NCBI GenBank assembly: GCA_903822005.1
Contig: CAIJNL010000006.1
Span: forward strand, 1 to 64,000
Source: an uncultured Nitrospiraceae bacterium
GTDB taxonomy: Bacteria; Nitrospirota; Thermodesulfovibrionia; Thermodesulfovibrionales; Dissulfurispiraceae
Direction: 5' to 3'
Length of the DNA stretch: 64,000 nucleotides
A program made the translations under genes and the position numbers. The stretch's first letter is position 1; each line of letters begins with the position of its first letter. Shown piece after piece: positions 9,168 through 60,433 of this stretch. Under the pieces are notes generated by a model. It was not told where the DNA came from. It did not search any database and saw only the letters and a program-made list of their open reading frames with translations.

Positions 9168-9207
9168 ATTTCAGGGCTGAAATATACATTGTTCCGTTCA
9201 TAGAAAT

Positions 9208-9251
9208 AGAGGCGGGGAACAGCATTCCCCGCCTCTAAATATTTCTTTTAC
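9208..9251 (+). terminator. rho-independent terminator after the exported protein gene
   Basis: A perfect 12-bp stem, AGAGGCGGGGAA (9208-9219) with its complement at 9225-9236, has the 5-base loop CAGCA and is followed by AAATATTTCTTTT. It may also stop the convergent minus-strand kinase operon. Confidence 0.88.
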
Positions 9252-45006: not shown

Positions 45007-45317
45007 GAGAGCGCGTAAGCCCGGAAGGAAGTTATATCATAATACTGAAAGCTGCGTAACAAGCCTCTGACTATCTGGAGATTTCTCCTCCAAAGGACCG
45101 ACTGTTTATCTGCTCCACTATGAAGAAATTACATAAATCATGTAATTTCTTCATAGTACACACAACTTAAATGCGGACTTTTCCTTGTTTCTCAATGTTG
45201 TTTTTGGTGGCATTAAATATGCTTTCTCAATATTGCCAATTCTAAACCTATTAGTTGTGCAATCGCCAGCAGTGGAATTCTTCATGATATTAGCAATGCG
45301 AAAAAGGAGATGAAATC
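45007..45317. other. intergenic region with a long perfect hairpin
   Basis: No gene is seen in these 311 bases. The main element is an 18-bp perfect inverted repeat at 45117-45157. A small GGAGATTTCTCC palindrome lies at about 45078-45089. The region is AT-rich compared with the genes before it. Confidence 0.6.
45117..45157. repeat. 18-bp perfect inverted repeat
   Basis: ACTATGAAGAAATTACAT (45117-45134) is followed by AAATC and then its exact reverse complement (45140-45157). It is not followed by a T-run, so it is not a typical terminator in either direction. It could be an operator, a transcript-end stabiliser or the remnant of a small mobile repeat. Confidence 0.8.
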
Positions 45318-58902: not shown

Positions 58903-59084
58903 ATGCTAACAGGAAGATCGCTATCAGCATGCACAGCATCTGACTTGACCTGTTCTGGCTCGAGAAATAAATGGTGGTCCCAACTGGAGTTGAGCCTGAT
59001 ATAATGCTCTATAAATATTCGATTATATGTCGCTTTTTTTTATTCTTTCAGCTTCCGAGGAAAATCGATAGATAATTCAACTTC

Positions 59085-59113
59085 TTGACAATTGTAAAGT
59101 TCAACTTTATAAT
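59085..59113 (+). promoter_or_regulatory. consensus sigma70 promoter for the DUF4143 ATPase gene
   Basis: TTGACA (59085-59090) and TATAAT (59108-59113) match the consensus exactly with a 17-base spacer. The expected transcription start falls at or next to the ATG at 59120, so the mRNA would be leaderless. Confidence 0.8.
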
Positions 59114-59118
59114 TGTCA
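59086..59118. promoter_or_regulatory. 33-bp palindrome covering the DUF4143 gene promoter
   Basis: TGACAATTGTAAAGTT (59086-59101) and AACTTTATAATTGTCA (59103-59118) are inverted copies with one mismatch and a single central base. The dyad spans the -35, spacer and -10 elements, so a protein bound here would block transcription. Confidence 0.85.
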
Positions 59119-59119
59119 T

Positions 59120-60301
59120 ATGTACCTGAAACGCCTCTTAACAACTACACTATCACAAGCGAAGGACCTGTTTCCTGCAGTCCTGGTTACGGGCCCGCGA
59201 CAGGCAGGAAAGACGACCTTTCTGCTACACGAGTCCGGCAAAGAGATTGCTTATGTGAGCTTTGATGATCCTATTGAGCGCCAGTTCGGGAAAAGTGACC
59301 CGAATGGGTTCCTAGACCGCTTCGCAGATCGTACTGTAATCCTTGATGAAGTGCAGTATCTTCCTGAGATTCTGCCATACCTGAAGATGCGTATCGACCG
59401 AAACCGAAAAAAAAATGGTCGATGGCTGCTTACGGGTTCCCAACAGTTCCAGCTCATGAAAAATATTTCGGAATCTCTTGCTGGTCGCGTTGCACTGCTC
59501 GAACTTTTGCCTTTTAGCACTATCGAGCATAAATATACCCAACTGGATGCTCTGATTTGGAACGGCTGCTATCCCGAACCGGCCCTCAATGCAAAAATCC
59601 GCGAGTTGTGGGTGCGCTCTTATATTCAGACATATATTGAGCGCGATATCCGCCAGCTCCAGAACATCAAGGACATTCATACCTTCGGCCTGTTTCTGGG
59701 ACTTGCGGCAGCGCGCCATAGTCAGATATTGAATGCAGCCACGCTGGCAAGGGATGTAGGCGTATCTCAGCCGACAATCAAGTCATGGACCGCTGTTATG
59801 GAAGCATCATACTTGTGCAGACTGCTTCCCCCATACTTCAAGAATTACGGGAAGCGTCTTGTCAAAACGCCCAAACTCTATTTCCTTGATACAGCCATTG
59901 TCTGCGAACTGACGCGGCAGCCAAACGGTTCTGCTGCCCTTGCAGGTGCAATGGGCGGCGCACTTTTTGAAGGCCTGATAGTGAGCGAGGCAGTTAAGGT
60001 CTTCACCATGCTCGGGAAAAGTCCGGACATATTCTTCTGGCGTTCACACGATGGACTCGAAGTCGATTTGATTATTCAGGTTCAGGGAAAGCTTGTTCCT
60101 GTTGAGATTAAACTCACAGCTACACCGACCGAAGGCCACGCAGGGCCTCTCCAAAGGTTCAAGGCACTTGCCGGCAGGGATGCCGCTGATACCGGGCTTG
60201 TCGTTTGTCGCGTTAAAGAAGAAAAAAAGCTTCCTTTCGGGAATATTGCCTTGCCATGGGAACATTTCGCTGATTGGCTCTTCAGGCTATTGAAGGGCTG
60301 A
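59120..60301 (+). CDS. AAA-type ATPase with DUF4143 domain
   Basis: This 393-residue protein has the Walker A motif GPRQAGKTT at 25-33 and the Walker B motif in VILDEVQYLPEILPYL. A C-terminal DUF4143 domain contains AATLARDVGVSQPTIKSW, a helix-turn-helix-like segment, and a nuclease-like FLDTAI and LEVDLIIQVQGKLVPVEIKL (PD-(D/E)xK-like) stretch. Members are widespread and often in variable genome regions; their role is not settled. The gene has its own consensus promoter inside a palindrome and probably no leader, which suggests autoregulation (inference). Confidence 0.9.
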   Translation: MYLKRLLTTTLSQAKDLFPAVLVTGPRQAGKTTFLLHESGKEIAYVSFDDPIERQFGKSDPNGFLDRFADRTVILDEVQYLPEILPYLKMRIDRNRKKNGRWLLTGSQQFQLMKNISESLAGRVALLELLPFSTIEHKYTQLDALIWNGCYPEPALNAKIRELWVRSYIQTYIERDIRQLQNIKDIHTFGLFLGLAAARHSQILNAATLARDVGVSQPTIKSWTAVMEASYLCRLLPPYFKNYGKRLVKTPKLYFLDTAIVCELTRQPNGSAALAGAMGGALFEGLIVSEAVKVFTMLGKSPDIFFWRSHDGLEVDLIIQVQGKLVPVEIKLTATPTEGHAGPLQRFKALAGRDAADTGLVVCRVKEEKKLPFGNIALPWEHFADWLFRLLKG

Positions 60302-60316
60302 TTGGTGATGACCAGC

Positions 60317-60433
60317 TTACTTCCCCAGCCCGATTATATGATGCTCAAAAACATACCCGAAATCCTCGGCAATACTCTTGAACTTGTTCCTTATCGTACC
60401 AAAGTCAAAGCTTAGGTCAGCGCCATGCTCATT
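60317..60433 (-). pseudogene. in-frame protein-like remnant following the glnD stop codon
   Basis: Directly after the glnD TGA the same frame stays open for 38 codons to a TAA at 60317-60319. It encodes NEHGADLSFDFGTIRNKF and then SIAEDFGYVFEHH and so on. The sequence looks like the C-terminal end of a real protein and not like chance, yet it has no start codon. It may be the remains of a decayed gene or a readthrough extension of GlnD. I do not recognise the family. Confidence 0.45.

Follow-up and report, generated by a model that had tools for sequence, protein, structure and literature searches.

A consensus promoter embedded in a conserved, covarying palindrome at the start codon of a DUF4143 ATPase gene: a putative autoregulatory operator

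We identified a consensus promoter that lies inside a palindrome and abuts the start codon of a gene for an AAA_14-DUF4143 protein. The gene is carried on the window, the 64,000-nucleotide stretch of DNA from an uncultured Nitrospiraceae bacterium that was analysed here. This promoter-operator architecture is conserved at homologous genes, its two arms covary, and site-pattern searches link it to this gene alone. From these patterns we strongly infer that the palindrome functions as an operator, and repression of the gene by its own product is probable.

The −35 hexamer TTGACA (positions 59085–59090, plus strand) and the −10 hexamer TATAAT (59108–59113, plus strand) each match the consensus at six of six positions across a 17-nucleotide spacer, bearing out the promoter that an earlier sequence-only reading had placed at the gene start. 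The window has no other 12/12 match to the sigma70 consensus (0.01 such matches expected under an iid model). The promoter coincides with an inverted repeat at 59086–59118, TGACAATTGTAAAGTT-C-AACTTTATAATTGTCA, in which two unstranded 16-nucleotide arms, each a putative operator half (left, 59086–59101; right, 59103–59118), flank a single central nucleotide at 59102. As the same reading had described, the arms differ from perfect symmetry by one mismatch (15 of 16 pairs complementary). The dyad takes in the promoter but for one base, the first T of the −35 box. No second copy of the full promoter-palindrome site, allowing up to three mismatches, was found in the organism's own 3.2-Mb genome, and no RNA family was found at the locus (Rfam).

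The −10 hexamer ends 6 nucleotides before the ATG; the earlier reading had the promoter in the right position but gave this gap as seven bases. The usual start, 7 nucleotides downstream, thus falls on the A of the ATG (59120–59122, plus strand), which is predicted from this geometry to serve as both transcription start and start codon. A Shine-Dalgarno motif is absent before 59120. The proposed leaderless geometry is supported by the spacing, and Shine-Dalgarno motifs are also rare across the family (see below).

The gene (59120–60301, plus strand) encodes a 393-residue protein with two Pfam domains that score above their curated cut-offs, AAA_14 (Pfam accession PF13173, E = 8.5e-28) and DUF4143 (Pfam accession PF13635, E = 2.6e-43). 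PADLOC assigns it to the PDC-S01 class (profile PDLC04790, E = 4.8e-97, in output that shows no curated cut-off), and neither NCBIfam nor PDB sequences gave a match to the protein. In 68 diverse homologues, the Walker A motif GPRQAGKTT (residues 25–33; 59192–59218, plus strand) has invariant G25, R27, G30 and K31, and the Walker B motif TVILDE (59333–59350, plus strand) has an invariant D76 and an E77 present in at least 90% of sequences. The same 68 sequences conserve a PD-(D/E)XK-type motif, E284...E314-x-D316...E329-x-K331 (59969–60112, plus strand), with E284 and K331 invariant and E314, D316 and E329 present in at least 90%. Residues 314–331 read EVDLI...PVEIK, a shape that we take, following in part the description of PDC-S01 as an ATPase-nuclease (PMC12988326), to be that of the PD-(D/E)XK nuclease motif. 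The same source places PDC-S01 fourth among the defence calls made most often in prokaryotes and treats it as a putative class without experimental validation (PMC12988326). The protein is thus a likely ATPase with a PD-(D/E)XK-type nuclease and a candidate for phage defence, with its effector function taken from family annotation. The defence-like character suggested earlier holds at the level of family membership, as the PADLOC candidate PDC-S01.

Between the ATPase motifs and the nuclease-type motif, residues 205–226 (NAATLARDVGVSQPTIKSWTAV; 59732–59797, plus strand) give sub-threshold matches to many Pfam helix-turn-helix families. This signature supports the helix-turn-helix-like segment that had been noticed in the product, and we propose the segment as the operator reader. 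Residues 229–258 (59804–59893, plus strand) form the putative wing of a winged helix. The M-Y N-terminus is invariant in 18 homologues. In three homologous pairs dN is 0.09–0.12 and dS 0.9–1.5, indicating that the gene is under purifying selection. The organism's own genome has four DUF4143 genes.

In one scan across 84,980 species genomes we found 32 loci, of which about 20 show 53–80% amino-acid identity. Assignments for the latter span Nitrospirota, Nitrospinota, Thermodesulfobacteriota, Myxococcota, Pseudomonadota, Fibrobacterota and other lineages, although most come from metagenome-assembled genomes, in which single taxon assignments may be wrong. We identified 22 close homologues (~53–80% identity), from Nitrospirota, Nitrospinota, Thermodesulfobacteriota, Pseudomonadota and Fibrobacterota, that keep the promoter, the palindrome and a distance of 6–8 nucleotides to the ATG. 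These 22 window-clade operators were anchored on TTGACA, hence its presence in all of them. Nearly all close homologues have TTGACA-17-TATAAT-like boxes within a palindrome of this kind. Farther upstream the sequence varies among the 22, as do the adjacent genes, and pairwise DNA similarity usually extends from 35–45 nucleotides before the ATG, where the palindrome lies, to near the stop codon.

Per position, the spacer carries 1.31 bits of information and TGTCA, the five nucleotides after the −10 box, 1.06; the 20 nucleotides that precede the −35 box carry 0.21. Promoter function alone would not need a conserved spacer and TGTCA. When the clade consensus was used as a search pattern with up to three mismatches, 16 of 36 genomes matched and every match lay before this gene; the remaining genomes, some of which carry the gene, differ from the consensus by more than three mismatches. 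Absence of the palindrome next to homologous genes had been set beforehand as grounds for refutation, and the palindrome proved to be conserved with compensatory changes. The promoter-palindrome arrangement is not a local accident.

Some homologous loci carry lesions. At L044 (2490–2680), the −10 box is interrupted by an insertion of ~190 bp that contains a GC-rich hairpin, CCCCGCAGCTTGCTGCGGGG; L038, which is 95–98% identical to L044 on both sides of the insertion, has an intact −10 box. The L044 insertion is a natural disruption of the −10 box. The genes at L053 and L067 are frameshifted (their frames stop at residues 195 and 36, respectively), and the palindromic promoter is still there.

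The two arms of the palindrome change together. Across the 22 operators, 290 of 352 mirror pairs are complementary, compared with 267.6 ± 4.0 in column shuffles, and none of 5000 shuffles reached 290. Double changes include T-A to A-T at pairs 7/27 and 8/26, A-T to T-A at pair 9/25, A-T to G-C at pair 13/21 and G-C to A-T at pair 14/20. One covariant class corresponds to about four changes on the protein tree (three to four across bootstraps, with only one forced by the starred branches), and L049 has that class though it is placed within the group of the other class. Common descent alone is therefore an unlikely explanation. The dyad symmetry is itself what has been conserved, as expected for the site of a protein dimer.

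The symmetry also gives the minus strand a putative mirror promoter, ATGACA-17-TACAAT (59091–59119), which matches 10 of 12 consensus positions. Bidirectional promoters are described as common in bacteria (PMC12825309, PMC10268837), and the palindrome might on this evidence reflect sigma70 boxes mirrored on both strands, with no repressor involved. We consider this quite improbable: no conserved divergent gene is present, the symmetry runs through the centre of the spacer, where promoters do not need it, and the palindromes of other DUF4143 subfamilies are centred 30–40 nucleotides upstream, a position incongruent with mirrored boxes.

We examined these other subfamilies in a sample of 124 distinct DUF4143 genes, drawn from 60 relatives and from the species-genome scan, together with 185 control genes from the same loci. 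A hexamer with at least five of six matches to TATAAT ends 5–7 nucleotides before the ATG in 64 of the 124 DUF4143 genes, compared with nine of the 185 controls. A Shine-Dalgarno 4-mer is present in 6/124 DUF4143 genes and 44/185 controls. The best palindrome in the last 60 nucleotides reaches p ≤ 0.05 against dinucleotide shuffles in 54% of the genes (5% expected), and in 46% when the window clade is left out. This palindrome excess gives Mann-Whitney p values of 4.6e-22 against controls and 2.7e-12 against AT-rich controls, in which kinship among the genes overstates independence.

The palindromes differ in sequence between subfamilies while occupying the same place, sometimes within one genome. 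They include ACAATTTAACCA-N5-TGGTTAAATTGT at L021 (to which L022 and L132 are close), CCTTGCAATTTTTCCACGTCATGGATAAATTGCAAGG at L177, TGACTATTCTAATATTTAATATTAAAATAGTCA at L078 and ACTAAATGCAA...TTGCATTTAGT at L124, L127 and L130. A separate Pseudomonadota sample has a palindrome at p ≤ 0.05 in 10/26 genes and a consensus −10 box in only 4/26. Ordinary Shine-Dalgarno leaders precede the genes at L058, L062 and L063 (Endomicrobia-, Bacilli/Firmicutes- and Spirochaete-like, respectively), and a clear palindrome is absent in about half of the family. The promoter-palindrome pattern is thus a family tendency, strongest in the window clade, and no rule. We also observed that the genome of L037 (G402), a metagenome-assembled betaproteobacterium, contains 11 DUF4143 matches; by comparison, 86 of 100 genomes sampled from its phylum lack any.

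Weak palindromes do arise by chance in AT-rich promoters, and the locus could in principle be an ordinary strong promoter whose palindrome and start-codon position are accidental. This is barely credible, being already contradicted by the conservation: the arrangement goes beyond chance because it is conserved with mirror covariation and because its analogue recurs, in excess, across the DUF4143 family.

Several observations bear on which protein reads the palindrome. With the rest of the protein controlled for, similarity of the upstream sequence correlates with similarity of the helix-turn-helix segment at a partial Spearman coefficient of 0.12–0.14; other domains reach at most 0.06. A sliding window peaks at residues 229–258, the likely wing, whether all pairs are taken, pairs between subfamilies, or the set that leaves out the window clade, and in the comparison between subfamilies these residues have the highest partial correlation with operator similarity. 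In the 25–80% identity range, residues 361–384 tie with 229–258. The partial correlations of the helix-turn-helix and wing with the operator are small (~0.12–0.20), and within the window clade no coevolution peak falls at the helix-turn-helix, the peak lying at residues 289–312 instead. The correlation supports, without proving, a role for the product as palindrome reader. Among the loci no flanking gene recurs, and the frames that do recur all lie antisense to the gene itself. This leaves the product as the one candidate regulator inherited together with the site. The helix-turn-helix could alternatively be structural or bind the nuclease substrate. The Thermus thermophilus DUF4143 gene TT_P0211 was reported to rise 6.6-fold when a plasmid and Argonaute were both present (PMC4406477), a rise that is consistent with inducibility but not specific to the autorepression model.

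The palindrome might instead be the operator of a host transcription factor. Its half-sites, TGACAATTGTAAA, are themselves near-palindromes, presumably of the common repressor type bound by MarR-, CopY- or Fur-like proteins, and acquired genes are often placed under host regulators. However, the site-pattern searches match only this gene, in its own genome and in others, and the site is kept across phyla with differing regulators. No regulator gene is linked to it, and the palindrome at this place changes from subfamily to subfamily, in some cases within a single genome. Control by a host factor is accordingly unlikely, and the encoded protein remains our preferred occupant of the operator.

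The clade's spread across phyla with unrelated flanks indicates transfer of the gene within the clade. The sequence-only reading had proposed a self-contained mobile or defence-like unit; travel between phyla agrees with mobility, but neither a mobility gene nor a clean insertion boundary was found in the window. No mobility gene recurs beside the unit among the loci, and the same-genus genome is too diverged for an empty-site comparison (GlnD 46% identical). A terminal-repeat transposon was rejected, there being no 3′ copy of the palindrome, and direct repeats flanking the unit (59020–59034 and 60331–60345, 13/15 matches) are at chance level. No close relative of the protein was found in IMG/VR viral contigs, and phage records gave seven matches, all below 40% identity and from unannotated faecal contigs.

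At L050 (4711–6368; Desulfobulbaceae), tRNA-Leu(gag) stands on one side of the homologue and a partial tRNA-Leu copy, 78% identical and 1.57 kb downstream, on the other, an arrangement that is the mark of insertion at a tRNA gene. The neighbours there were read from translations as GAPDH, PGK, TpiA and SecG. Long direct repeats containing tRNA-Leu 3′ sequence were also seen at L052. The L050 arrangement, the onset of homology at the palindrome and the movement of the gene between phyla could together mean that the palindrome serves the movement of the unit, as a recognition or recombination site, or is recognised by the nuclease, and is no operator. This is highly improbable, since the 3′ end has no second palindrome, the repeats at L050 are tRNA sequences 200–270 nucleotides from the start codon, and the palindrome is tightly coupled to the −35/−10 spacing in every homologue.

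On balance, the reading that we consider fairly likely on sequence evidence is a self-contained, horizontally transferred one-gene unit whose product represses the leaderless transcript by acting at the palindrome. Sigma70 polymerase would use the consensus promoter and start at the ATG, or within a base or two of it, to yield a leaderless mRNA. The 33-bp palindrome over the promoter would act as a dyad-symmetric operator occupied by a DNA-binding homodimer. The likeliest occupant is the encoded AAA_14-DUF4143 protein, acting through its own (winged) helix-turn-helix. Bound to the dyad as a dimer or larger assembly, the product would block polymerase and keep expression low, and the promoter would reopen once the protein is diverted or depleted, perhaps onto invader DNA as its substrate. 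A gene that brings a strong promoter and its own repressor, and that can do without a Shine-Dalgarno sequence, could work wherever it lands. This would fit the spread over phyla without companion genes.

A more tentative extension, which we hold to be possible but rather less than even in likelihood, is that PDC-S01/DUF4143 genes are largely portable one-gene circuits in which the ATPase-nuclease effector is its own repressor. In such circuits, operator and winged helix would coevolve in each subfamily, leaderless translation would be host-independent, and engagement of invader DNA would be the induction signal.

Elements of this arrangement have precedents. Phage lambda cI, transcribed from PRM, is an autoregulated leaderless repressor gene. 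Like the unit described here, it combines an operator that overlaps the promoter, a start codon at the predicted transcript start and a helix-turn-helix product; cI is a dedicated repressor, whereas here the putative repressor doubles as an ATPase, bears a nuclease motif and stands alone on the chromosome. RptR, the repressor of a defence island, keeps defence genes down at promoter repeats or palindromes (PMC12255303); it is a small, separate regulator, whereas no distinct regulator gene is linked here. Type II toxin-antitoxin systems resemble the proposed circuit in their product-linked autorepression at the palindromes of compact transferable units (PMC3920265); they differ from this single gene, which has no recurrent antitoxin neighbour among the loci. 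Bidirectional promoters share a pseudo-symmetric sequence, in contrast to the full 33-bp dyad, covarying spacer and missing divergent gene found here (PMC12825309). PDC-S01 itself is, in the available part of its source, an ATPase fused to PD-(D/E)XK, a single gene and widely transferred, with no promoter, operator or regulation described there for the class (PMC12988326).

Autorepression at promoter palindromes, leaderless repressor genes and PDC-S01 as a named family are thus already known. In a literature search that left preprints and most subscription journals outside, so that a prior description is possible, we found no account of this promoter-operator-start codon arrangement for DUF4143/PDC-S01, no ATPase-nuclease described as a likely repressor in that family and nothing on the control of PDC-S01 genes. 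The conserved promoter-operator offers a direct handle on the family: a defined DNA ligand, an assay for the helix-turn-helix and a means to report the inducing signal. A consensus promoter, self-repression and independence from Shine-Dalgarno sequences may also explain how a single gene can be expressed safely after cross-phylum transfer.

The window contains further features. Near the unit, on the minus strand, lies a gene for a papain-family cysteine protease (Pfam accession PF00112; 57382–58185). A perfect 14-bp inverted repeat with a 7-nucleotide centre, ATGAAGAAATTACATAAATCATGTAATTTCTTCAT, is found at 45120–45154, and a GC-rich, near-perfect and terminator-like inverted repeat, AGAGGCGGGGAA...TTCCCCGCCTCT, at 9206–9238.
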